DNA from: Candidatus Gastranaerophilales bacterium
GTDB lineage: Bacteria; Cyanobacteriota; Vampirovibrionia; Gastranaerophilales; Gastranaerophilaceae
Length of the DNA stretch: 47,877 nucleotides
Reading direction: 5' to 3'
Assembly (NCBI GenBank): GCA_944326465.1
Contig: CALVEB010000015.1
Location: 1-47,877 of the forward strand
Shown: positions 10,913 to 47,877 of the stretch, one piece after another
How positions within the stretch are numbered: the stretch's first letter is position 1
How the letters are laid out: each line of letters starts with the position of its first letter
Translations under genes and position numbers: made by a program
Notes under the pieces: model-generated
Told to the model about the DNA's origin: nothing
The model's input: the letters and a program-made list of their open reading frames with translations, nothing else
The model's database searches: none

Positions 10913-11006
10913 ATATCAATTGTACTAAACAACAGCCTAAAAACTATTCCCCTGTCAGGCTACTTTTAATGAAAATATTGCGGCTGGTTGTATTCCTTTT
11001 TTACAA

Positions 11007-11257
11007 TGTAGAAAACTGCATGAATTTTTGTAGAAAAAACATGAGTTTTCTACATTTTTCTATGAATATAGATTTTATAAATTGTTTTCTACATTTTTTA
11101 TAAATATTTTCTACAAAATATTCTACTTCCAAAAATCAATAATAACAATAGTTTCACAAGCTTTTCTACAAATAAATCGAGCTTATTACTACTATTATTA
11201 TTTAAATAAATAATTATTTTTATAATTAATATATAATAGTTTTTTGGCTGTAGAAAA
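11007..11257. other. Candidate chromosomal replication origin (oriC)
   Basis: Seven exact copies of the 9-mer TTTTCTACA, one base from the cyanobacterial DnaA box TTTTCCACA, occur in 251 bp: forward at 11046, 11085, 11107 and 11162; reverse (TGTAGAAAA) at 11007, 11029 and 11249. Near matches are at 11056 and 11119. After the box at 11162-11170 come a short GC-containing linker (TCGAGC) and six triplets TTA-TTA-CTA-CTA-TTA-TTA (11183-11200), the complement of the DnaA-trio motif, then an almost pure AT tract (11201-11240). This is the order of a bacterial basal unwinding system. dnaN begins at 11386; dnaA is not in the window. Confidence 0.8.
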
Positions 11258-11385: not shown

Positions 11386-12507
11386 ATGAAATTTCTGGTT
11401 AAAAAAGAAGATTTGTATAATGGAATAAAAATAGTAGAACGCGCAACAAGCATGAAAGCATTACAGCCTGTGCTTTTGAACATTCTTATTGAAACAATAG
11501 ACAACGCTACAATTAAACTGGTTGCAACAGACTTAGACCTGACAGTGATAGCATACGTTAATGCTCAGGTCGAAGAAGAAGGAAAAATTACACTGCCTTC
11601 AAAAACACTTAATGAAATTGTTTCAAAACTTGGCGATAAATTAATAACCTTTGATATGAATAACGATGAAACAACCGTTAATATAACATGCCAAAATTCA
11701 AAATTTGACATAATCGGTATTTCTGCAAATGAATTTCCTCCGGAATTTTCTAATATAGAAGTAAATGAAGAAGATTGCTTTGAAATAGCACTAAAACCTT
11801 TTGTAAAAGCTGTACGTCAGGCAGGTTTTGCAGCAGCAGGATATGAAACAAGCAACCTGCTTTCAGGTATAGTCTGCGATATTACGGGCAATACTCTTGA
11901 AATAGCTTCAACAGACGGAAACAGACTTGCCCGCGTTAGAGAAAAAATAGAAAATAATGAAAATAAAAACAGCCAGCTGATAATCCCTTCAAAAACCTTG
12001 AATGAATTTATCAAGATGAGCGCGTTTTTAGATGATGAATCAATTAAACTTTATACAGAAAAAACAAAATTGATAATAAAAACAAATACAACAACAACAG
12101 TTTCAAGATTGCTGGAAGGTCAGTTCCCAAAATATAACCAGCTTATTCCGGCAGAAAGCCCTAAAACTGCAATTATAAATGTTGCACAGATGATTTCTGC
12201 GCTTGATCGTGTATCTATTATGGTTAACGATAAAACAAGTATTGTTAAACTTGATTTTAGCGAAAATAATCTGAAACTTACAGCAGATACACCTGATTCC
12301 GGTAAGTCAGAAGAAAATCTTGATATTGATTATAAATCAGAAGATTTAACAATTGCATTCAATTACAAATATGTTCTGGAAGCTTTGAAAAACATAGAAG
12401 CAGATGAAGTAAAATTCGGATTGAATACAAGCCTTTCAGCAACTGTTTTGAAACCAAACAGCGAAGAAGATTTCGTATGCTTGATTATGCCGGTTCAAAT
12501 TAGATAG
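11386..12507 (+). CDS. dnaN: DNA polymerase III beta subunit (sliding clamp)
   Basis: A 373-aa beta clamp, the expected length, with three repeated clamp domains. Recognisable stretches include MKFLVKKEDLYNGIKIVERA at the N-terminus, KITLPSKTLNEIVSKL, GYETSNLLSGIVCD and the C-terminal LIMPVQIR, close to the universal MPxR-type ending. It forms a ring on DNA that tethers polymerase III. The ATG at 11386 is chosen because of AAGGAG ten bases upstream; earlier in-frame starts add 26 residues not expected in the family. It lies just right of the candidate oriC, as in some cyanobacteria. The C_GCAxxG_C_C gene follows after 11 bp. Confidence 0.95.
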   Translation: MKFLVKKEDLYNGIKIVERATSMKALQPVLLNILIETIDNATIKLVATDLDLTVIAYVNAQVEEEGKITLPSKTLNEIVSKLGDKLITFDMNNDETTVNITCQNSKFDIIGISANEFPPEFSNIEVNEEDCFEIALKPFVKAVRQAGFAAAGYETSNLLSGIVCDITGNTLEIASTDGNRLARVREKIENNENKNSQLIIPSKTLNEFIKMSAFLDDESIKLYTEKTKLIIKTNTTTTVSRLLEGQFPKYNQLIPAESPKTAIINVAQMISALDRVSIMVNDKTSIVKLDFSENNLKLTADTPDSGKSEENLDIDYKSEDLTIAFNYKYVLEALKNIEADEVKFGLNTSLSATVLKPNSEEDFVCLIMPVQIR

Positions 12508-17535: not shown

Positions 17536-20484
17536 TTAATATATTATACCTTTTTTGGTTTTTGTAATAATTTCTAAAATCATATTTTCCATAAATTTAA
17601 TTTCGTCTTGTTTTTCTTTTGGCTGGCGTGCTTTCCAGTCTGCGAGTTCTTTACGGAAAATATCACCGTCAACAAGGCATTCGCCTGTTCCGACAAGGTG
17701 AGAGTATTTGTCTGTAAATTCGTTAATAAAATCCGCATAGGTTTCAGTAATTAAATCTGATGCAGTAAGAGCATTTTCAAGGATTACGTGTCTATCCTGC
17801 TCAATTTGTTCTTTCATTTTTTCTGAAATATTTGAGCCGAATACGTGCATTGCCTGTTTTCCGGTTTTTGCGCCCTGTCCCATGTTTTTAACCATTTTGT
17901 CAGCATAATTTGTTGCCATTTCAAGGTCACAGGTGATACCGAATGAGCCGTCTATATCATAAAAATATTTTTCTGCTGAATGTCCGCCGTAATCGCATAC
18001 TATCTCTGCAAACAGTTTTTCAAAAGACCATTCTTCATTACCGTCATCAACAGGATACATTGCGCCGCCAAAGTTACTGCGCGGATCCAGGGTTACAAAG
18101 TTGACTTTTGAGGACTTATGCCATGGTTTACCGTAGTCTTTTGCAATGTTATTCATAATTTCTGCATTAAGAGCATGCCCGCATTCATGGGATGTGACTA
18201 TTCGTTTTCTGTGCGGCTCAACTATGTTTGTAGACGGACGGCCGCTGGTTATTTGAAGGTAGGCTTCCGTAAAGTCTGATCTTGTGACTTCTTTGTGACC
18301 GCGTTCATTTGCTACTGATTGAGCTTTCTGAACTATATTTTTCATAAAAATAAACGGAAAACCTTCTGTTGTCTTAGCTACAGATTTAATGATTTTTTGT
18401 TTTTCTTCCGGAGTTTTAGCCGCAAGTTTTATTTTATTCTCTTTCAAGGTTAAATTTATAATATCTGCTCTTTCTTTTTCGTTGTAAGCAGGGGAAGAAA
18501 CTTCGATATTATCGGCAAACAGACATGATTTCATTGTTGCTTCGCCGATTAATTTAGGATCAGACACAGAACCGAGTACAAGAATATTTAACCCTTTACG
18601 CTGCGCGTTGTCCATTTCTCTCAAGAGTTGTGCCATTGCTTTCTGCTGGTATTCAGAAATAAGTTCTCCGATTGAAAAATATTCAAAGTTTTCAATAAAA
18701 AGCACAGCTGCTTTATGCGAATTGTTTTCAGCCTGAGTGGACACAAGAGAGAACATCTTTTTAATAGAATTTTCCGGTGATAAAAGGCTGCCGCCGAAGA
18801 TATCTACTTCTTTAGTCCCGAAATCCATGGCATTCATCTCTATATAAGGCACTTTAGCTTCACCGGCAATGGCTTTAGATACAAATCGGCGCCCGCTGCC
18901 TGCTGTACTGTCCTGTGAAGAGATTATTATACCTTTTGTGCCGATTTTATTTGATTTTATCTGTTTTACTATGGCTGCTGCTTCTTTTTGCGTTGCGTCT
19001 TTTCCGATAATATCTTTTACACGTTTGTCTGTATCAAATACAACATTCAAAGAACTGTCATTATCGTTTTTACGGAATAAAGTATCAGCTTCTTTTATAT
19101 AATTTGAAACATCATGTTCTGATATTTCTTTTTTGTCTATATAGTAAGATGCTATTTTTTTCATCAGTTTTTGACCTTTATCAGGAAACACACCGTCAAG
19201 CTGTGCTGATGTTTCTATTGTTTTTTCAATAGCCTTTTTGGAGAACGGTTTTTTGACATCTTTCATTAGCAAAGGTTCTTCTTTAAATGCTTTGACAAAT
19301 TTTTCCGTGCTCAAAACAGGAATTGAAATCTCTCCAAAATTCTCATACATTGCCTGAATTAACGGATTCTGCATGCTGCCAAAATAGTTATCTTTAGGAT
19401 CTACCATTATGAATTTTATATTTGACGGGATATTTTTCATCAAATTTTGAAAATCATTGGAATACGCGAATACGACATCATCATTGCCGGTATTGGCTAC
19501 AGAATTTACAACCATATTTGTCGGATAAAGTATTATTACGTGTTTTTTGTTTTTATCTTTTGCCAGTTCTTTAACTTTTTCAAATACATAAACTTCTTTT
19601 GCATTTAGTTTAAACTCAAGAATATCCGTATCTTCCGGGGCTGTTTTGTATAAACTTGTAATAAACATATTCGGGTTAACTTTTTTATGATCAAAAGTTA
19701 CAAACATATTTGTGCCTAAAGCCAGATTTTTCCATACATTGTTTGCTTTTGCATCGTAATCTTTTATGTAAGCCCTTTCATTTAACTGTGTATGTTCCAC
19801 CATTGTCAGGTCAAAGATTTTATTCATAAAATTATTAACAAATTTTTTAACGGAATCGTTTTCTGAATAAAGGGCAGCACCGAATATACTGAAATCATAA
19901 ACCCTTTCATTATCATCTTCACGCGGGTTCCAGATATCACGAACTACTTCTTCTGAAAGTTTAGGTTTTTCTGTTATTTCGTTTTTGGGCAATTGAGAGA
20001 TTATATCATCAAGTTGATTAATTTCTTCTTTGACTATTTTTTGAAACCCTTTTCTTATCTCCTCGTTTTTCAGAAGATCCGGCGAAGCTGTATCTTCAAA
20101 CAGTGACGGTATGCTGTCATTTTTTAAGTCGGAATAATTTTTGTCACCGCTATTTAAATCATCAATGGTTTTATCAAGTTTACTCAGTCCTGCACGCCAG
20201 ATGTGAAAATGTGTAACTTCACTATTTTTATTATCTATCGCGATTTGTGTTGCATCATTTACCAGATTTGACGCAGAGTTGGTGTAATAGTATTCAAGAA
20301 CCTCAAGAGGAGACATTTTTTGAACATTGCGTTTTTGTCCGGTAAAATTGACCGGATAATAATATGGCGGATTATATGTTTTATCTTCTTTTATTTGCGG
20401 TTGCGTAACCGGTGCGGGTTTATTAATTTCCTGTGTATTGTTTTTAAATTTTATACTGTAACTTAGTCCTACTTTATCTATCAT
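17536..20484 (-). CDS. Pseudo-AAA ATPase fused to an intact M41 (FtsH-type) zinc metallopeptidase
   Basis: A 982-aa protein related to FtsH only in its C-terminal half. No transmembrane segment is seen, so it should be cytoplasmic, unlike FtsH. Residues 1-60 are a disordered tail with VNFTGQKR. Residues 280-470 resemble a first degenerate AAA-like domain (VDPKDNYF, then a helical lid). Residues 510-745 align with an FtsH AAA domain, but Walker A reads SSQDSTAGSGRR (no GKT), Walker B reads LFIENF rather than IDE, and the arginine-finger region is changed. The peptidase (755-890) keeps its zinc site: HECGH at 766-770 and a third ligand D853 in ITCDLEMATNYADKM. It thus looks like a peptidase driven by a non-hydrolysing AAA scaffold. 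The start has GGAGT upstream. Confidence 0.85.
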   Translation of the reverse strand: MIDKVGLSYSIKFKNNTQEINKPAPVTQPQIKEDKTYNPPYYYPVNFTGQKRNVQKMSPLEVLEYYYTNSASNLVNDATQIAIDNKNSEVTHFHIWRAGLSKLDKTIDDLNSGDKNYSDLKNDSIPSLFEDTASPDLLKNEEIRKGFQKIVKEEINQLDDIISQLPKNEITEKPKLSEEVVRDIWNPREDDNERVYDFSIFGAALYSENDSVKKFVNNFMNKIFDLTMVEHTQLNERAYIKDYDAKANNVWKNLALGTNMFVTFDHKKVNPNMFITSLYKTAPEDTDILEFKLNAKEVYVFEKVKELAKDKNKKHVIILYPTNMVVNSVANTGNDDVVFAYSNDFQNLMKNIPSNIKFIMVDPKDNYFGSMQNPLIQAMYENFGEISIPVLSTEKFVKAFKEEPLLMKDVKKPFSKKAIEKTIETSAQLDGVFPDKGQKLMKKIASYYIDKKEISEHDVSNYIKEADTLFRKNDNDSSLNVVFDTDKRVKDIIGKDATQKEAAAIVKQIKSNKIGTKGIIISSQDSTAGSGRRFVSKAIAGEAKVPYIEMNAMDFGTKEVDIFGGSLLSPENSIKKMFSLVSTQAENNSHKAAVLFIENFEYFSIGELISEYQQKAMAQLLREMDNAQRKGLNILVLGSVSDPKLIGEATMKSCLFADNIEVSSPAYNEKERADIINLTLKENKIKLAAKTPEEKQKIIKSVAKTTEGFPFIFMKNIVQKAQSVANERGHKEVTRSDFTEAYLQITSGRPSTNIVEPHRKRIVTSHECGHALNAEIMNNIAKDYGKPWHKSSKVNFVTLDPRSNFGGAMYPVDDGNEEWSFEKLFAEIVCDYGGHSAEKYFYDIDGSFGITCDLEMATNYADKMVKNMGQGAKTGKQAMHVFGSNISEKMKEQIEQDRHVILENALTASDLITETYADFINEFTDKYSHLVGTGECLVDGDIFRKELADWKARQPKEKQDEIKFMENMILEIITKTKKGIIY

Positions 20485-20580
20485 CTACAAACTCCTTTTT
20501 CGGCTCGTGTGATAACAGATAAAGGCTTCTAATAAAATATTTTTGCTATTTGCGTAATAAAAATTAACACAAAATACAAC

Positions 20581-21525
20581 TTATATTTTGTAATTAACAA
20601 TCAATACTTCTTCAGTTGCCGATTTTTTATCTTTAACATGATAGCTGGCATGATTATAATTAAAAGTTAAATTTATTATGTTGTATATATCACTATTTCT
20701 GTCTAACCAATCTTTCAAAATACTGTTTTCTTTTCCTTTGCATTTAAGGACATTTGACATTGCAAATCGAATGTTTTTATTGTTTAAACAATCCAAAAAC
20801 TTCAACAAGTCCTTCTCGTCCTGACTTTTCCATCCGCCCTTGTCAGTATAAGCGGCACTTGTTATAAGATAAGGCGGGTCAAGATAAACAAAACTATTTT
20901 TCGTCAGCCGTGAAGTATCAAAATGTCTGAAATCACAACTCGAAAATTCATAATTGCTCCACGGCGGACACTCTATAAATCTTTTTAACTTTTCTTGTAT
21001 TGCTGCATTAAAATCTCTTTTGCCGGGAGGAAGATTAAACTCTCCGTTACGATTAAACCTGATTTGATTGTTAAATGCATATACAACCAAAACATAAAGC
21101 ATCATATAATACTTATTATCTTTAATTTCTGCCCTGTTAAAATCATTTCTTAACTTTAAATATTTATTTCTATTATAAACAGATAAACCTTTAGTTCCGG
21201 TTGTATTGTAATATTCAAAACCATATTTTGCACTTTGCGACAAACCGTATTCGGAAATTATTTCATCAATCAAATCAAATGCTGCCAGGCCAAGCTCTCT
21301 AAAGGTTTCCAGAAGTCTTACCAGATTACTGTTTATATCATTAAAAATAATTTTGCGGCTTTGAATATTAATCCCGACATTTCCGCCGCCGCAAAACAGA
21401 TCAACAAATATATCTATATTTCGGGGCAATAATGGTAAAATCTGCGGCAGCAGCTTGAATTTACCTCCTGTATAATTCAGCGGAGATTGAATATATTTAT
21501 TACGTTCCTCTAAAAGCATTTGCAT
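20581..21525 (-). CDS. D12-class DNA adenine N6-methyltransferase (first of a tandem pair)
   Basis: A 314-aa adenine methyltransferase of the Dam/D12 class. It has the family N-terminus PLNYTGGKFKLLPQI, the SAM-binding motif FVDLFCGGGNVG (residues 40-51) and the catalytic DPPY at 216-219. It methylates adenine N6 in a specific DNA sequence that cannot be predicted here. The ATG follows AAAGG. Its start overlaps the end of the second methyltransferase gene by 16 bp on the same strand, so the two are translated together. No restriction endonuclease is visible on either side; downstream lies the pseudo-AAA/M41 gene. Confidence 0.9.
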   Translation of the reverse strand: MQMLLEERNKYIQSPLNYTGGKFKLLPQILPLLPRNIDIFVDLFCGGGNVGINIQSRKIIFNDINSNLVRLLETFRELGLAAFDLIDEIISEYGLSQSAKYGFEYYNTTGTKGLSVYNRNKYLKLRNDFNRAEIKDNKYYMMLYVLVVYAFNNQIRFNRNGEFNLPPGKRDFNAAIQEKLKRFIECPPWSNYEFSSCDFRHFDTSRLTKNSFVYLDPPYLITSAAYTDKGGWKSQDEKDLLKFLDCLNNKNIRFAMSNVLKCKGKENSILKDWLDRNSDIYNIINLTFNYNHASYHVKDKKSATEEVLIVNYKI

Positions 21526-22556
21526 ATAAAAAGCCTTTCCTCATTTGCGGCGACTTCAGATTTACCTGTAGAAAATGTCTTGTAGTCCTGTTTAAACATT
21601 TTGACAGTACCTTTTGTGTGTAAAATACGTATAATGTCGCTGTCAGAAATCTTTGCATTTGAACGCCGGACACCCTTTTGCGCCATATTGTTATAGGATA
21701 ATACGATATATTTTGTATTAAGCGATTTTATTAAGTGCTCAAAAGCATACACCGCATTAGCCGTACAAAATTCACTTTTTAATCCCGTTCTGTCCATTTT
21801 TCCTGCAACACCATAAACTTGAGGCTTTTGCCATCGTGCAATATTTTCAAGCAGGTGATAAGCGTCACAATACTGTCGGGAATTATACGGCGGATCAAGA
21901 TATACAACATCGGCATTAATTACAGGGGCAAGTCCTGACGCGTCCTCATTATAAATTTTATTGGCTCTGTTTGTTTCACGAATTACAGGTATTTTCAGCA
22001 GTAATGTTTTTTCAAGATTGCCATTTTTTCGATAAGCATCATAATGCCCGCAGGTGTTTGCAATTTTGTCAAGGGCATATATTAAAGAAGTTATAAGAAT
22101 ACATCTTTCTCTGTGATTTATGTCGCCATTTGAATATTTTTCTTCAATATCACCGCGTATAAACCCTGCTTTTCTGCAATTTCTCAGGCTGAAATATGTA
22201 TCCGCATAATTTTTTGACCAGTAATTATCCTCCGTCACATTAATTTCGTTATATTTTCTTATGTAATCAACGATTTTATCAGGTGAATAGTTTTCAGTGC
22301 CAAACCATGTCTGATGACAAACGTAATTACTGTATAAAATATCATTTACAATCAGCTTTTTATCGTAAAAGACAGTTGCAACAGCCCCTGTTCCGGCAAA
22401 TAAATCCGCAAAAGTTTCAAAATACCCGCATTCATGTACAATATTCCGTCTTATAAAATCATTCAGCTTAAATTTATTACCCAGATAACGTCTGCTGTTT
22501 ATAGAAAACCGCATAACATCATCATTAAAGTTTACTTTTTGTTTTTCAACCGGCAA
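21510..22556 (-). CDS. D12-class DNA adenine N6-methyltransferase (second of a tandem pair)
   Basis: A second adenine methyltransferase of a different D12 subgroup, with YLGNKFKL near the N-terminus, the SAM motif FADLFAGTGAVA and VVYLDPPYNSRQYCDAYHLL. The start is uncertain: the TTG at 22556 has GAGG eight bases upstream and is used here (348 aa); a TTG at 22601 or an ATG at 22514 are alternatives. Paired D12 enzymes of two subgroups are known from type IIS systems of the FokI kind, where each methylates one strand of an asymmetric site. No nuclease gene is next to this pair, so it may be an orphan pair for regulation or protection. Confidence 0.87.
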   Translation of the reverse strand: MPVEKQKVNFNDDVMRFSINSRRYLGNKFKLNDFIRRNIVHECGYFETFADLFAGTGAVATVFYDKKLIVNDILYSNYVCHQTWFGTENYSPDKIVDYIRKYNEINVTEDNYWSKNYADTYFSLRNCRKAGFIRGDIEEKYSNGDINHRERCILITSLIYALDKIANTCGHYDAYRKNGNLEKTLLLKIPVIRETNRANKIYNEDASGLAPVINADVVYLDPPYNSRQYCDAYHLLENIARWQKPQVYGVAGKMDRTGLKSEFCTANAVYAFEHLIKSLNTKYIVLSYNNMAQKGVRRSNAKISDSDIIRILHTKGTVKMFKQDYKTFSTGKSEVAANEERLFICKCF

Positions 22557-22748
22557 ATTACTATCCTCATCAACATAAAATATAATATAACAGCCGGTCA
22601 AAAGTTACTATAATATTTCGCCGCATCTTAATATTTGTAAGCAATTTTTAAAACAAATATGACAGACTTTCTCTTTTGTCATTCCGGAGAATGCATTTTT
22701 TTGCCGCTCCTGATTAAATCAAATTAGTTAAAAAAGGAGGTTAAAATT

Positions 22749-34293: not shown

Positions 34294-35136
34294 TTAACAT
34301 ATAGCACAATTAGGAATTATAGATTGTTTTGAGATGAACATTATTTCTTTGCCGTTTTTGTTTTTCCCTGCAGAGTAATTGATATTAAACTCTATAGGAT
34401 TTTCAACAAAACTATATAAATTTACTATCTCCGGTGTATTGTCATAACTGACAATCCATTGTCCCTTTAACTTTTTTATCATGTTTGCTATTTTTACATG
34501 ATCATCTTTTTTATAGTGGTTATTATATAGTTGATATCCTTTATTGAAATACGGAGGATCAAGATACAACAAACATTTTTCAAAATATCTACAGTGTTTT
34601 TTTAAAAGTAATAAAGTATCTTCATTATACAGTTTTATAGAGTTTTTATATTCTGCTATTTTATAAATTCTTTCAATCAATTCTTTTTTATTAAATCTAG
34701 CATCTATTTTCCATACACCTAATTGAGATTTTCCTCCAATGGGTCCCCCTTTTATTACACCTGAATAATTACATCTATTAAGAAAGAAGGTTGCAAATCC
34801 AATTTCCGTTATAGAATAATCTTTCATATTGTTATGTATATGTTTTTGGATTTGCCAATTATTTATTGTTATAGGTGTTTCTTTAATATATTTTATAAAA
34901 GTTTCAGTATGTTCTAATACTGATTTCCAAAAACAATAAATGCCATAATCACTATCATTTATGTATATTTTTTTTGCATAGCCATCTATTAACAAGGAAA
35001 GTGCGACAGAAGCCCCTCCTGCATATGGTTCCACATATATAGGTTTATCACTATAATTTAATTCTATGAATTTTTTCATAAAATTAATAATTTTAGCCTT
35101 TCCGCCCGGATATCTTAATGGTGAATAATGTTTCAT
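34294..35136 (-). CDS. D12-class DNA adenine methyltransferase of an AT-rich cassette
   Basis: A 280-aa adenine N6-methyltransferase. It has the N-terminal PLRYPGGKAKI, SAM motif YVEPYAGGASVALSLL, the FFLNRCNYSGVIKGG region typical of D12 enzymes and the catalytic DPPY at 193-196. No Shine-Dalgarno is seen. The gene starts 40 bp after the ATPase/Toprim gene on the same strand; both are much richer in A+T than the neighbours, which suggests transfer as one unit. It is the third D12 methyltransferase in this window and is of a different subgroup from the pair at 20581-22556. It likely marks self DNA for the neighbouring protein. Confidence 0.9.
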   Translation of the reverse strand: MKHYSPLRYPGGKAKIINFMKKFIELNYSDKPIYVEPYAGGASVALSLLIDGYAKKIYINDSDYGIYCFWKSVLEHTETFIKYIKETPITINNWQIQKHIHNNMKDYSITEIGFATFFLNRCNYSGVIKGGPIGGKSQLGVWKIDARFNKKELIERIYKIAEYKNSIKLYNEDTLLLLKKHCRYFEKCLLYLDPPYFNKGYQLYNNHYKKDDHVKIANMIKKLKGQWIVSYDNTPEIVNLYSFVENPIEFNINYSAGKNKNGKEIMFISKQSIIPNCAIC

Positions 35137-35176
35137 ACTTATACTCTAACACAGAATTTAATGTTTTTCCAGATTA

Positions 35177-36751
35177 TTAAACTATTTCTTCAATATTTTT
35201 TCGTTTTGCAATATAATTGTAGGTTTTCTTAAAATTCTGTAAAAAATTATCTACTAAATCTTGATTTTCAGCTTTCCAATATTTTACAATATTACTATCT
35301 TCAAATAATTTTTTATGAATATTGAACCATTTTTTATATTTATCTCTTTCCTTGAGAGAATCATCCGTAGGTAAATCGTGTTCTCTAAAATATTCTATTT
35401 TAATTCGTGCATTTTTTTTATTTTCTTCTTCAAAATACTTCTTTGATTTATCAGAAAATATAAAATCACGTAATAATTTTTCAGGTGAACAGAAAGTCTC
35501 AGGATATGTAGGTAGTTTAATGTAATTATTTTTACAATTTTTTATCCTTTTTTCATCTGTAGCTTTTAAATCACCATCAAAAACAACTAAATAATCTTTA
35601 AAAATTGGTTCAGAATTCATCAAATCAATAATACATTGACAACCAATAGATACATTTCTATACTCCAACTTCCTGACATACCCTTCGATTAATTTTTTTA
35701 ATAACCATCTATTTTCTTCATCTTCTGTATAAACTACTATTTTGGGACTTTTATTATTTCTTTGATATAGAGATACTAATAAATCTTCTTCAATATCTTT
35801 GTAATCATAATTTTCATATATTTTTAAAGTGTTATTAACCTTAGTAAAGTAATAGTGTTTTAAATTTGGATTCTCTTTACTGTTTTTCTCACAAAATTTG
35901 CTAATTAGAGTCAAACTATGTGTAGTAAATAAAATTTGTATATTATTACTACGAGCCTCTTTAATAAATAGTTCAAGCAGTTTTTCTTGAGCTTTAGGAT
36001 GTAAAGATGCTTCCAGTTCATCAATAATCAATAGTCCACCTTTGTAACTATCCTGCATTTCTCTTTTTATTTTCTTAAATGATAAAATAGATAATAAAAT
36101 TTGTCCTAGATTATCTTGTCCTGATGAATTGGTTTTCCAATCGTATCTGTTAGTACTTACTCCCGACATTTTTTTCTTTGTCGATCTTAAACTAACGTCA
36201 GATACATCAGTGATCTTATCGTTATTAGATAAAATTTCCATATGTTTATTAATAAACCAATTCTTATCCTCATCATTATCAAACTTTAAGCTCGTATTTG
36301 ATATAAATTTATCATCTATTTCTCCTATAGGATATAACCTTGATAAACCTAAATATATAACCGGAAACTCATATTTAGCTTCTGTTATTTTGCCTCCTTC
36401 AAGCTTTTCTTTAGGAATTACCCTGTATCTGGTATTATTTTCTTGCCATGCAGTTCTAAAAGATTTTGTTCTAATTTTATCACCATCAACATGCAAAATT
36501 TGTAATTTATCACTTTCTGTCGGATCAAATTTTAAGCTGCCTTTTAAAATTTCGCTAAATTCAGCTTTAAATGGTTTACCATTATACGTTACTCCATATT
36601 CTCTTTTTAATTCTGTTGAGTTTGCCATTAATGCTAAAATTGTTGACTTGCCTGTGGCATTCCATCCTGCAAACATTGTAATATATTTACCTAAATTAAA
36701 AGTCTCTTTTTCAATAGCTCTGAATTTATTAATTTTTATTGTTGTAAACAT
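35177..36751 (-). CDS. ABC-type ATPase with C-terminal Toprim-like domain (OLD-like), candidate defence nuclease
   Basis: A 524-aa protein (ATG at 36751; a GTG four codons earlier is possible). Walker A GWNATGKST (29-37), an ABC-signature-like SSGQDN (about 209), Walker B LLIIDELEASLHP (240-252) and the H-loop TTHS (276-279) define an SMC/OLD-type ATPase. A second domain follows with YTEDEENRWLLKKLI (acidic Glu at 343), VVFDGDLKA (D-x-D at 392-394) and a LPTYPETFCSPEKLL segment, the pattern of Toprim nucleases in OLD, GajA and PARIS-type proteins. It is co-directional with an adenine methyltransferase 40 bp downstream, forming a possible two-gene restriction-like system. Very AT-rich. Confidence 0.82.
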   Translation of the reverse strand: MFTTIKINKFRAIEKETFNLGKYITMFAGWNATGKSTILALMANSTELKREYGVTYNGKPFKAEFSEILKGSLKFDPTESDKLQILHVDGDKIRTKSFRTAWQENNTRYRVIPKEKLEGGKITEAKYEFPVIYLGLSRLYPIGEIDDKFISNTSLKFDNDEDKNWFINKHMEILSNNDKITDVSDVSLRSTKKKMSGVSTNRYDWKTNSSGQDNLGQILLSILSFKKIKREMQDSYKGGLLIIDELEASLHPKAQEKLLELFIKEARSNNIQILFTTHSLTLISKFCEKNSKENPNLKHYYFTKVNNTLKIYENYDYKDIEEDLLVSLYQRNNKSPKIVVYTEDEENRWLLKKLIEGYVRKLEYRNVSIGCQCIIDLMNSEPIFKDYLVVFDGDLKATDEKRIKNCKNNYIKLPTYPETFCSPEKLLRDFIFSDKSKKYFEEENKKNARIKIEYFREHDLPTDDSLKERDKYKKWFNIHKKLFEDSNIVKYWKAENQDLVDNFLQNFKKTYNYIAKRKNIEEIV

Positions 36752-36997
36752 ATTCTGTCTCACTAATTGAATTACTATATAAGTAATTATATATAAAATA
36801 TGATATTATAATATTAATTATAAAGCAATCTTTACAAAATTATTTAAACATTATTAAATTGTAATAAACAATATTTTAAGGAGATTTTTTATAATTATTT
36901 TAGTTTTGTTAATTTTCAGTTAAATAATATTTTATAATTCTTAACAAACATCTTTTTTTGCGCAATAAAAAGTTTGTGCTTTTTTAATATAACTACT

Positions 36998-42030: not shown

Positions 42031-45000
42031 TTATTTTTTATCTATTTGTTGATACATATTTTCCAAAATTTTCAATTGCTTGGCTGTTTCCGGTTTTGTT
42101 ATAAAAGTATTCAATTGTGAACGGATATAGTCTGTTAATTGATAACTGTAGGCTGCTGATTTTAGATTGCCGTGAACTTTTAGCATTTCAGCAATTGAAG
42201 ATGATAAAAGTGACATAAAATCGGTACTTTCAAGGGCTTTTCGGTCTATGAATAATCCGTCATATTTTTGATCTTTTACAAGCGCGTGGAACGGGGTGTT
42301 CTTGCTTGATTTTGCATTAAATACATATTCCTGCTTGCCGCTAAGATCCGGAATAGAACCAGTTCTGTCGTTTTTAGCAAACAAGTCTAAGGCTTCTCTT
42401 AATATTCTCAGTTTTTGAATTTCTTCATTTGTAGGTTTAAGAGAGTGCGGCTTGTGTTCAAGATCATAAACCTCTTGAGCACTTTTCATACCGACATTTC
42501 TACAATCTGAATACGCAAATCTATAACCATTATCTTTAAGATAATTTTCTATTTCTTCATCAAGTATATTACCGGCACGCCAGTTATAATCCGGAACATA
42601 TACGATTTTTGCGTCAGAAAAGTCTATTTGGAGTCCGCGTCTTCGCGCTTCTTCAATCAAACCTCTTGCGAATGCAATTGATGTATCTTTTGTTTCGAAT
42701 AAAAGTTTAGGGTCATTTGTTGATTTTGCGGTCAAAACAGGTTCTAAGGATGCTATTGCCTGTGTTAATTCTTCATCGGACATTGTTTTTCCGTAATAAT
42801 TAGCCAGATCATATAATTGGGAATTATTTATAGCCATTCTGTCACGACCGGAATTTAGATTATAATATCCGGATATTTTTCTTAATTCAGGGTCATCTGT
42901 CGTGCGTTTAAATGCAATACTTAAATTTTTAAGTCCGCCTGATATTTTGCCGTTTTCTGTTTCATAACGCTGTACATAATAGAGGTTTCCTTTTGCGTCT
43001 TTGTTATCATCTACTTTGAATGCAAAATATTTGTTTTCAAAAGTCGGATTCTGGAAATCCTTGTTGTAAGGATGTTTAAAGTAGTCTTTTGCATCAAGAA
43101 TTGTTTTGACTAAATCTTTGTCAGAGGTCTTAAATTCTATGTAATTTCCTTTTACAGGAGTATTATTTTTAGAAAGTGTCTGGGTCATGTGCGCTGTTTT
43201 TATATCGTCAGATGAACGTCCGAAAGTCATAGTCCAGTCACCACATGCGTATTTAACTGACGGTGTATCTTTTGCAAGAAGGTTAACAGCAACGATACGC
43301 GTTCCTTCACCGAAAGCTCCGGCATTGGCGCCGTCACCGTCTTTGGTACTGTCACCGAGAGCTTCCAGATGTGAATAATCATAATGACCGTCACCTGTTA
43401 CTCTTACTCTGTAGCTTCCGTCTGCTTCCGGAATAATTTCTATACCGACGCCTTCCATAGTGTGACCGTTGCCGTCATAGAAGTTTTGCATGATATCACG
43501 GGCTATTTTGTCATTGCTCCAGTTAGTTTTGGCGCCATAAACGATTTCTATACGTGCATGTTCTGTTTTACCCAGTCTGGAAACGTCTTCCGGATGAATT
43601 GCAGGAACTTCTGAGCGTGTCGGGTTCATGTTACCGGTGTCAGGAATTGTAAATCTGACAGGTTCGCCCTGATTAAACAGTTTGTCAGTATATTCTGATG
43701 TTGCAGGTAAGGTAAGAGTTTCGGTCACTGTTGTTGTTTGCGGTAATTTTTCATAGCCGAATGTTTTTGGTTTAGTATTTGTGACAGCATCAGATATTTG
43801 CGATACTAAGTTAGATTTTTTATCGCGTATTTTATGTATTAAAGTTTTCAATAAAGAAGTCGGGGTTTGTTTTGTCAACATGTCACCGAGTTTTTTATTG
43901 TTGTCAAAAGATTTTACAGTCGTACGTCCAAGTGTAACGCCTTCTTTTTTCGGCGTATTAACTTCTTCAATATATTCTTCATATTTGAAAGGAGAATTAA
44001 GTTTCTGCTGAACATTTGTTGTATATGCAGCAGTATCAAATTGCTGTAGTGGTTTAGTTGATTTACCTGCATATAAATCAGCCAGTACCTGCATTTTTTC
44101 TAAAGCGGCAGGGTTGTTTATCATAACATCGGTTATGTATTTCTGGATATCAATAAGCCTGTTACTGAAAGCTTCTGAGGTATCTCCGCCGACTTTATGT
44201 GAAATTTCATGAATCCAGGTAGCGAGATTCTGAACAAAGTCTCCAAACTCAATAGACGGAAGTTTTACCCAGTGTCCCAGATACTCACCATTGCTTGTTA
44301 TTGCCTCTGCTGCTTCATTAGGGCAGCCGCCTTCGTCAAAAATAAGTGTAGGTTTTTTCGTATCAGTTTTTGTAATAAATTTGGCTGAATTGATATCAGA
44401 ATTTTCCTGTAATATTTTAACTGCTTCATCAAGAAGATGAATTTTAGCTTCCTGTTCAGGAGTAGGAGTCAGAGGTTTTTTCTTGCCGTTAGAGAAGCTT
44501 TCAAAAGATGACATGCCTGTATCTTTCATTACAGGATTAGCTATTTTGTATCCCATAAGTTCTGCCATTTCAAAATCTTCAGGTGTTGAATTTTTATCAA
44601 GCCATACATATTTTTGTGAATTAAAATCTATACCCAGAGATCTTGAGCGTGCCTCACGGACAAATGCTCCAACTAAATTAAGTTGATTTTGGTCAATCTT
44701 TTTACCTTTTGTGGCACGCCAAACATCTTCAAGAGATGATATCACCTGTGTTAATTCAATATCTGACATTGTTTTTGCATACCGTGCGATAAGATCTGCT
44801 ATCTGGTAATTATAAAGCTGAACCCTGTCACGCCCTGTACCCAGTTTGTATCCAGAACCGGCAATTTTGACAAGCTCTTCATCATCCGGCATTTTTTTGA
44901 ATATCATGCTAAAACCAGGCAGACCGTTATCGACATTACCGTCAGTTTCATAACGCTGTACTATATACACATTGCCTTTTTCGCCTTGCGGCAGGAGTTT

Positions 45001-47877
45001 AAACCCAAAATAATCATTTTCAAAATCCAGATTACGGAAATCTTCATTACGCGGATGATAGAAATAGTCTTTGGAATTGAGAATTTCTCTTACAAGACCT
45101 TCATTTTTTGTTTGAAATTCAATATAGTTGCCTTTTAGAGTTTCAGGATTTTTAGAAAGAGTCTGGGTCATATCGGCTGTCTGTAGGTCATTGGAAGAGC
45201 GTCCGAAAGTCATAGCCCAGTCGCCGCAGGCGTATTTAACAGACGGTGTATCTTTTGCCAGAAGGTTAACCGCAACAATACGTGTTCCTTCGCCAAAAGC
45301 TCCTGCATTTGAGCTATCGTCTGCTTTGGTACTGTTGCCTAAAGATTCAAGGTGTGAGTAATCATAATGACCGTCACCGCTTATACGTACATTATATGTG
45401 CCGTCATTGTTTTTTACGATATTAATATCAACGCCTTCAAGTGTATGACCGTTACCATCGTAGAAGTTTTGCATAATATCACGGGCTATTTTTGTGTTGC
45501 TCCAGTTAGTTTTAGCACCGTAACGGATTTTAATACGTGCATTTTCAACCTGATCCAGACGTTCAATATCTTCAGGATGTATAACAGGATTTTCTGCACG
45601 GGTCGGGTTTAGTCCGCCTTCATCTTCTATTTTTAGACTTACACTGCCGTTTTTCTTTAGATCTTTCATCAGATCTGTAGTTGACGGTAATTTTTCAATT
45701 GCTACTTTACTTTTTTCAGGCAGCTTGCCAAATGGCAGCGTTCTGTTTGGTTGATAGCCGCCACCGCTTGACCTCAGGAGATCTCGTATGCTTGCATTGG
45801 TTAGCGCTGCTGAAATATCCTCCTGATTATAATTCAAAGGAGTTTTAATCAAGGCTTCCATTTCTTGTCTATATGCTGCGATATCTACCTGCTCCGGCTG
45901 GCGTTGTGCAACCGGCGTTGTCATCTTTTTATATTCATCCTCAGGCAGGTCAAACAGTCTTTTCCATTCTTCAAAATTCATGTATCTTGCCTCAGAGCCC
46001 CTGAGGTACGGACGTTTTTCTAATGTATCAAGCTTTTTGAAAAACTCATCTTCACTACAGAACAGAAATTCTGCAATTATATTATTTCTTTCATTTAGAT
46101 TAGTTCCAAGTCTTGTTAAGAGATCTCTTTTAGAAAGAAGTGTATAATCAAAATTTAATCTTTTAATAGCTTCATCGTTTCCAAAATAACCACCGTTCAT
46201 GCTAATAAGGTTTTTAACAGTAGAAAGTTCCTTTGTAGTAAGTTTTGGCGCTATATTGTCACGGAAATTCTGCATAATTTTTTCATGGTTATACAGATTT
46301 TTATCAAGTCGATTGTTGCTAATCAGGCAGTCTACACTCCAGCTTATGTCATTAGTATTTCCATATCTAACGTACTCAATACCGTATATAAGCTGTTTAG
46401 CTTGTTCAAGCAGATTTGCATCTTCTGAATATTTAGGATTTGTATAAAATTTTTGGTCTGTGCCCTTGTATTTATCTATAAACTCCTGAACCTGCTTGCG
46501 CTCAATATCTGTCAAGGAGGCATCTTTGGGCACACGGATATCCCTGATCATGTCTAGATGATTATCTTCATACCATTTTTTTATTTCTGCAAGATTATCA
46601 GGGTCAAGTTTTGAATAAACAATATCTTTAATACCGTTACTTTCTTCATTAAATATCTCATATTTTGACCTGTGGTATACTCCGGATTTGATTTTTTGAA
46701 GAATTTCTGTAATATTATCTTTTGTGACAGAATTTATTACATCAAACTTCAAATCCTGCGGGAAATATTTATCTGCGGCAATAGCTTTTACAACATCTGC
46801 ATTCGTTTCATTCAAACCGCGTCGCATACGCCAGTCAAGATCTTTTATAAAATCCAGATTTTCCCGCAAAAATTCTTCGCTGCATTTTTGTGAATATCCT
46901 TTTGTATTCTCAAGTTTTGTCAGAATATTGTATACCTGTTCCGGATTTAAACCTTTTTCGACAAGTTCTTTTGCAAAAGCAAGATTCTCCTGATTGGTTA
47001 CATTAATAAGGGATGAAATATTCAATTTATCGTCTGATTTATCATTAAATAACTTATAAATCTCAAGCTTAGCCGGCACATCTTCCATTTTGGAAACATT
47101 TGTGAACATCAAAGGTGAAAGAAAATCTTCAGCATGCAATAATTCTTTATCGTGTTTTAATGCATTATAAAGCTGTTTTATGCCTTCCGGCGTACTATCA
47201 TCTATGTTTAATACAATACGGGAAATATATTCATCATCTAAATCTGATTCCTTGCTAAAGAATTTATATAATTCCATCATATTGTTTATATTATTTGCAT
47301 TAACCTTGTCCAGAGCCTCTCCTATGCCATAGTGGCCAAACTTCTCAGGATTGCGTAATGTAAATTCATACATGGTGATTTTCGTAGAAAGTTCATCAGG
47401 ATCTGTAATTTGTTCAAAATTTTCTATGTAATATTTTAGATCTTTGTTGTAATCTTTATCATTCTTTAATGTTTCCAGAAATTCAGCTTTCTTTTGCTCA
47501 AATTCTTCCGGCTTGATTTTTACAACCTGAATTTCGTCCTCAGATTTAGCTGTAACATCGGTAGCTTTTGAGGTTTCAGGTGTGTCAGAAACTGGGACTT
47601 CTTTTGTTGTAATATTGTCTGTTTCTGTTTTAAACGGATTATTTTCATCCACATATCTGGCAAAAAGATTGTTTTCTTCAGGCATGTCAAATTCAGGTTT
47701 AGATCCGTCGTTAATTTTGGGAGTTTCAATAGTACTATCTAAAGCCTTAGCAGCCTCATGCGCCTCCGGTGTAACCGGTACATCTTTCGTATTCGGGGTA
47801 TCGTTATGCAGCTTGCTACCCAATTCATGTCCAGCTTTACCCACGGCCTTCATACCTCCGCCTATAAGTGGTGACAT
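42031..47877 (-). CDS. Giant protein with two GHKL-ATPase units and one HExxH metallopeptidase-like motif (N-terminus at window edge)
   Basis: The frame runs to the window edge, giving at least 1948 residues; the ATG at the very edge may be internal. Residues 1-720 are helical repeats after a disordered Thr/Pro/Glu-rich tail. A GHKL-type ATPase domain follows: N-box ARDIMQNFYDG (N804), GDGHYDYSHL (834) and lid GAFGEGTR (859). After a linker comes a zinc-peptidase-like HEISHKVGGDTSEAF (H1223, E1224, H1227). The unit then repeats 661 residues later: N1465, G1495 and G1520 motifs nearly identical, but the HExxH position (about 1884) has become SSIAEMLKVHG. The ATP sites look intact in both copies. 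There is no membrane segment. The function is unknown; a roles in DNA or protein remodelling, or in an effector, are only guesses. Confidence 0.8.
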   Translation of the reverse strand: MSPLIGGGMKAVGKAGHELGSKLHNDTPNTKDVPVTPEAHEAAKALDSTIETPKINDGSKPEFDMPEENNLFARYVDENNPFKTETDNITTKEVPVSDTPETSKATDVTAKSEDEIQVVKIKPEEFEQKKAEFLETLKNDKDYNKDLKYYIENFEQITDPDELSTKITMYEFTLRNPEKFGHYGIGEALDKVNANNINNMMELYKFFSKESDLDDEYISRIVLNIDDSTPEGIKQLYNALKHDKELLHAEDFLSPLMFTNVSKMEDVPAKLEIYKLFNDKSDDKLNISSLINVTNQENLAFAKELVEKGLNPEQVYNILTKLENTKGYSQKCSEEFLRENLDFIKDLDWRMRRGLNETNADVVKAIAADKYFPQDLKFDVINSVTKDNITEILQKIKSGVYHRSKYEIFNEESNGIKDIVYSKLDPDNLAEIKKWYEDNHLDMIRDIRVPKDASLTDIERKQVQEFIDKYKGTDQKFYTNPKYSEDANLLEQAKQLIYGIEYVRYGNTNDISWSVDCLISNNRLDKNLYNHEKIMQNFRDNIAPKLTTKELSTVKNLISMNGGYFGNDEAIKRLNFDYTLLSKRDLLTRLGTNLNERNNIIAEFLFCSEDEFFKKLDTLEKRPYLRGSEARYMNFEEWKRLFDLPEDEYKKMTTPVAQRQPEQVDIAAYRQEMEALIKTPLNYNQEDISAALTNASIRDLLRSSGGGYQPNRTLPFGKLPEKSKVAIEKLPSTTDLMKDLKKNGSVSLKIEDEGGLNPTRAENPVIHPEDIERLDQVENARIKIRYGAKTNWSNTKIARDIMQNFYDGNGHTLEGVDINIVKNNDGTYNVRISGDGHYDYSHLESLGNSTKADDSSNAGAFGEGTRIVAVNLLAKDTPSVKYACGDWAMTFGRSSNDLQTADMTQTLSKNPETLKGNYIEFQTKNEGLVREILNSKDYFYHPRNEDFRNLDFENDYFGFKLLPQGEKGNVYIVQRYETDGNVDNGLPGFSMIFKKMPDDEELVKIAGSGYKLGTGRDRVQLYNYQIADLIARYAKTMSDIELTQVISSLEDVWRATKGKKIDQNQLNLVGAFVREARSRSLGIDFNSQKYVWLDKNSTPEDFEMAELMGYKIANPVMKDTGMSSFESFSNGKKKPLTPTPEQEAKIHLLDEAVKILQENSDINSAKFITKTDTKKPTLIFDEGGCPNEAAEAITSNGEYLGHWVKLPSIEFGDFVQNLATWIHEISHKVGGDTSEAFSNRLIDIQKYITDVMINNPAALEKMQVLADLYAGKSTKPLQQFDTAAYTTNVQQKLNSPFKYEEYIEEVNTPKKEGVTLGRTTVKSFDNNKKLGDMLTKQTPTSLLKTLIHKIRDKKSNLVSQISDAVTNTKPKTFGYEKLPQTTTVTETLTLPATSEYTDKLFNQGEPVRFTIPDTGNMNPTRSEVPAIHPEDVSRLGKTEHARIEIVYGAKTNWSNDKIARDIMQNFYDGNGHTMEGVGIEIIPEADGSYRVRVTGDGHYDYSHLEALGDSTKDGDGANAGAFGEGTRIVAVNLLAKDTPSVKYACGDWTMTFGRSSDDIKTAHMTQTLSKNNTPVKGNYIEFKTSDKDLVKTILDAKDYFKHPYNKDFQNPTFENKYFAFKVDDNKDAKGNLYYVQRYETENGKISGGLKNLSIAFKRTTDDPELRKISGYYNLNSGRDRMAINNSQLYDLANYYGKTMSDEELTQAIASLEPVLTAKSTNDPKLLFETKDTSIAFARGLIEEARRRGLQIDFSDAKIVYVPDYNWRAGNILDEEIENYLKDNGYRFAYSDCRNVGMKSAQEVYDLEHKPHSLKPTNEEIQKLRILREALDLFAKNDRTGSIPDLSGKQEYVFNAKSSKNTPFHALVKDQKYDGLFIDRKALESTDFMSLLSSSIAEMLKVHGNLKSAAYSYQLTDYIRSQLNTFITKPETAKQLKILENMYQQIDKK

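Follow-up and report, generated by a model that had tools for sequence, protein, structure and literature searches.

The interval upstream of dnaN at 11007-11257 in a Candidatus Gastranaerophilales bacterium is best read as an origin of replication (oriC) whose DnaA box changed from TTTTCCACA to TTTTCTACA because the DnaA proteins of its class lost Asp-433, a reading to which we assign a probability of roughly 75%. That this interval is the oriC of the chromosome is very likely. Clustered boxes and DnaA-trios at an origin close to dnaN are ordinary, and the interest lies in the apparent rewiring, across a whole class, of a textbook contact between protein and DNA rather than in the origin itself. 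The closest named dnaN sequences come from Candidatus Gastranaerophilales MAGs (97% identity), an order within Candidatus Melainabacteria, and from the names of these dnaN relatives we infer that the class under study is Melainabacteria. Throughout, "class" refers to genomes marked as belonging to the same class or closer, and f1, f2 and so on are anonymous family labels.

The window, that is, the whole 47,877-nt stretch of DNA analyzed, contains seven exact copies of TTTTCTACA within 251 bp, all at the places given by the first-pass annotation (11007, 11029 and 11249 on the minus strand; 11046, 11085, 11107 and 11162 on the plus strand). One extra copy lies at 21567. The chance expectation for the whole window is 1.0, and the maximum reached in 100 shuffles was 4. 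The two near matches that had also been claimed proved weak: the best sites within the span carry two mismatches (e.g. 11119), and the sole one-mismatch site nearby, at 10997, falls just outside it. Scanning for the motif with one mismatch allowed, against shuffles, was discarded as too noisy in such AT-rich sequence. Genome-wide, TTTTCTACA occurs 95 times in 2.07 Mb (48 + 47), equal to the reversed-word control (44 + 51), indicating that the 9-mer is at chance level outside the cluster; the cluster by dnaN is a unique density within the genome. The box differs by one base from the cyanobacterial box, with T replacing C at position 6 of TTTTCCACA, as had been annotated, and TTTTCCACA itself has no copies in the 1.2 kb searched upstream of dnaN. 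The dnaA gene of this genome sits on a separate contig (G000:C20), and no TTTTCTACA was found in the surrounding 3.5 kb locus, which was considered as an alternative origin site.

Table 1 Features of the putative origin region.
Feature	Position	Strand	Remark
Putative oriC: seven exact TTTTCTACA DnaA boxes	11007..11257	.	four forward, three reverse
Trio-proximal DnaA box, proposed start of unwinding system	11162..11170	+	layout recurs in family
12-nt linker AATAAATCGAGC	11171..11182	+	
Six DnaA-trio-like triplets TTA TTA CTA CTA TTA TTA	11183..11200	+	
AT tract, probable unwinding element	11201..11245	.	11183-11250 = 10% G+C
dnaN, DNA polymerase III beta clamp, origin-side marker	11386..12507	+	PF00712, PF02767, PF02768

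Several other loci in the window, all on the minus strand, were observed alongside the origin region. A block of about 25% GC (34294-36763) encodes a D12 adenine methyltransferase matching PADLOC PD-Lambda-5_B (E 1e-111) together with an AbiLi/GajA-like AAA ATPase, a putative anti-phage defence pair. Two tandem D12 methyltransferases at 17536-22601 adjoin a protein of 982 aa that carries AAA as well as M41 (FtsH-type) protease domains, an odd gene neighbourhood for type II methylases. At 42031-47877, a 1948-aa open reading frame without a Pfam match runs into the contig end.

The cluster is conserved among relatives. TTTTCTACA is the top enriched 9-mer upstream of dnaN in about 50 relatives, with at least three copies in 25 loci. 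Tandem TTTTCTACA pairs (separated by at most 30 bp) are present in 19 of the 79 genomes searched, all within the class and mostly at the dnaN-side place, while the 14 sister-class genomes contain tandem TTWTCCACA in nine cases and tandem TTTTCTACA in none. Several relatives show no cluster near dnaN, and follow-up of three seemingly cluster-less genomes (G008, G028, G033) found no tandem pair. The box is "lineage-specific", as first described, with a scope of much of a class and not one genome. Conservation upstream of dnaN across the order, combined with the chance-level occurrence of the 9-mer elsewhere, upholds the annotated origin reading.

A position directly upstream of dnaN, as seen in most relatives, would also be expected of an operator bound by a regulator of dnaN. 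We regard this explanation of the cluster as highly improbable. In G006 (L310) and G012 (L311) the cluster is intact although about 5 kb of other genes intervene before dnaN, and it retains the box, the spacing of about 12 nt and the triplets, which are less regular in G006. That the cluster holds together at this distance argues against a dnaN operator, and both the layout of the trios and the minimum of the skew are in keeping with an origin. The intervening genes in G006 include an apparent recA. Skew was examined in two relatives, the contig containing the window being too short and skew within the window uninformative. Cumulative GC skew over 400 kb in G046, from another family of the order, traces a clean V that bottoms out at 263,000, next to the dnaN start at 263,115. 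For G104, from the same family as the genome studied here, the agreement is approximate: the combined skew gives 307 kb with dnaN at 313.7 kb, but GC skew taken by itself reaches a slightly lower point at 491 kb.

Consistent with an origin, the order of box, linker, trio and AT tract proposed in the first-pass annotation is present, with the triplets at exactly 11183-11200, and its box-linker-trio part recurs in relatives. The linker is short, as claimed, and its GC-richness turned out to be only slight (CGAGC). Published spacers between DnaA box and trio peak at 10-13 bp with a limit of 16 bp (PMC8287927), a range that includes the spacing found here. For basal unwinding, which calls for a spacer of at most 16 bp and at least three trios, the site offers 12 nt and six triplets. 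Of random positions in the region, 0.55% show a trio run as long as that at 11183-11200. In the relatives, a box followed by TTA/CTA trios at 11-17 nt was found in 25 of 27 cluster-bearing loci, compared with such triplet runs at about 0.4-3% of positions drawn at random from the regions concerned. The 12-nt spacing prevails within the family, in most genera. The arrangement shares with the B. subtilis basal origin unwinding system a box, an in-range spacer, an AT tract and TTA/CTA triplets that lie on the same strand as the box. It differs in the weakly GC-rich linker and in having no clear tandem high-affinity second box. Tandem DnaA boxes ahead of the trios are the commonest arrangement of this system, whereas here the sole exact trio-side box, at 11162, is preceded at 3 bp by a degenerate site, AGTTTCACA (11150-11158). 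In the proposed mechanism, DnaA, encoded elsewhere on the chromosome, would bind the seven boxes via domain IV. As in B. subtilis, an ATP-DnaA oligomer would then run from the 11162 box across the linker onto the trios, and the trio-bound protein would hold one strand, open the AT tract and allow helicase loading.

Asp-433 (E. coli numbering) is a base-contacting residue of the recognition helix that is nearly invariant in other bacteria. Aligned on 1j1v, the DnaA of this genome reads NKKHTTM against GRDHTTV in E. coli, placing Lys at the position of Asp-433. Comparison of domain IV with cyanobacteria, which the first-pass annotation had suggested, revealed a difference in a base-contacting residue, a concrete correlate of the altered DnaA specificity suspected there. 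Among 110 DnaA proteins of the phylum, Asp occupies position 433 in 0 of 84 from the class and in 26 of 26 from outside it (sister classes). The 84 class proteins carry Lys (62), Thr (7), Arg (6), Gly (4), Gln (3) or Asn (2). From these alignments, 433 appears as the one contact residue that tracks the class boundary without exception. A tree calculated without domain IV separates the Asp proteins from the rest at a single branch (support 99/82), and all residue-433 states together require 13 changes on the tree. In f11 genomes (L294-L297), the recognition helix reads GRGNS, with both Asp-433 and the neighbouring His-434 changed. No DnaA box was recognizable upstream of dnaN in f11 and f12, which have Gly or Thr at 433. 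Eight class genomes that are 86-96% complete (G058, G060, G075, G093, G106, G113, G129 and G155) gave no DnaA domain IV match, reflecting either missing contigs or loss of DnaA.

We called the box of each genome as the TTWTNNACA word found most often upstream of dnaN, provided that three or more copies were present there. All 14 Asp genomes have CC at positions 5-6 (TTWTCCACA). The Lys genomes comprise 32 with CT (TTTTCTACA), five with GA, one with AT, one with TT and none with CC. The Fisher test for Asp/Lys against CC/CT gives 4e-12, a value that overstates the association because the shift from Asp to Lys and from CC to CT is close to one tree event.

This near-single event, and a region of 18% G+C in which C-to-T is the expected direction of change, would also suit AT-biased drift at an oriC whose DnaA tolerates the substitution with its specificity unchanged. 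We consider drift improbable. Every exact copy has T at position 6 but retains C at position 5, a position reported to be unimportant to E. coli DnaA (PMC5043019). Furthermore, TTTTCTACA is also present beyond the order, in families f8 and f10, and in no Lys genome is CC the commonest box. Specificity might instead have been altered by domain IV changes other than that at residue 433. Several domain IV positions are unlike those of cyanobacterial DnaA and more than one box exists among the Lys-433 lineages, so that this explanation retains a modest, minority share of our belief. However, the DnaA of this genome retains R399, H434, T435 and L438; P423 is conserved in f2-f4, f7 and f8, among them several families with TTTTCTACA; and Tyr at 439 is found in cyanobacterial DnaA too, which nevertheless goes with a CC box.

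We therefore favor loss of Asp-433 as the probable cause of the box change. On this model, the class DnaA lost Asp-433, mostly to Lys, and with it the base favored at position 6 of the box (or the step from 5 to 6) would have shifted. Chemically, the amino group of C6 could donate a hydrogen bond to Asp, and Lys could donate one to the oxygen of T6. Since the published contact of D433 is with base pair 7 (PMC8235120) and not 6, the partner base of residue 433 awaits a structure.

Other residues occur with other boxes. On the trio side, Asn is found with GC (G030) and AA (G007), Arg with AT (G021) and Gln with CA (G059), and Arg accompanies TG in the f15 loci; the Arg genome G006 keeps CT. A search for further Arg-433 genomes (f15) added one, which had no dnaN match. 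Box positions 1-4 and 7-9 remain canonical in the Asn, Arg and Gln genomes. There is about an even chance that loss of Asp-433 on the class stem unlocked box positions 5-6, and that DnaA and its boxes then repeatedly co-diversified into a putative code of Lys-CT/GA, Arg-TG/AT, Gln-CA and Asn-GC/AA, with TTWT and ACA fixed. Counts beyond Lys and Asp are small, making the finer code a lead only. The simpler idea that residue 433 alone sets CT versus GA was dropped, as Lys genomes carry both. TTTTGAACA is the commonest TTWTNNACA near oriC in the Lys genomes G010, G017, G022, G023 and G055 and is found within TTTTCTACA arrays as well (G013), perhaps as a second class of DnaA site.

A class-wide residue loss with a matching box shift amounts to a natural experiment in which an essential initiator and many sites change together. 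If true, the co-diversification would constitute a naturally evolved recognition code for a replication initiator that nearly all bacteria share. The analysis also indicates where the origins of an uncultured gut group probably lie, information that growth-rate estimates based on metagenome coverage require, and it suggests that origin finders keyed to TTATCCACA or TTTTCCACA would overlook such origins.

Clade-specific DnaA boxes are already known from Thermotoga, Epsilonproteobacteria and cyanobacteria. Within the open-access literature, we found no report that describes the box of Melainabacteria or the loss of Asp-433 across a class, and no paper pairing "DnaA box" with TTTTCTACA. The cyanobacterial oriC, from the sister lineage, likewise lies beside dnaN, has clustered boxes (TTTTCCACA) in both orientations and often has dnaA elsewhere; the origin described here differs in having T and not C at box position 6, and its DnaA in having Lys and not Asp at the position of E. 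coli 433. Thermotoga maritima also combines a divergent box, ACCTACCAC (PMC10316083), with a DnaA that has no Asp at 433 (Ser in 2z4r). It is an independent parallel from an unrelated lineage, with a different box and a different residue. Epsilonproteobacteria similarly exhibit a clade-wide box shift at one position, accompanied by changes in the DnaA contacts (PMC5043019). Their shift concerns position 5, with Asp-433 retained and suspicion falling on residues 435, 438 and 439, whereas the shift in Melainabacteria involves box position 6 and, on our reading, residue 433.
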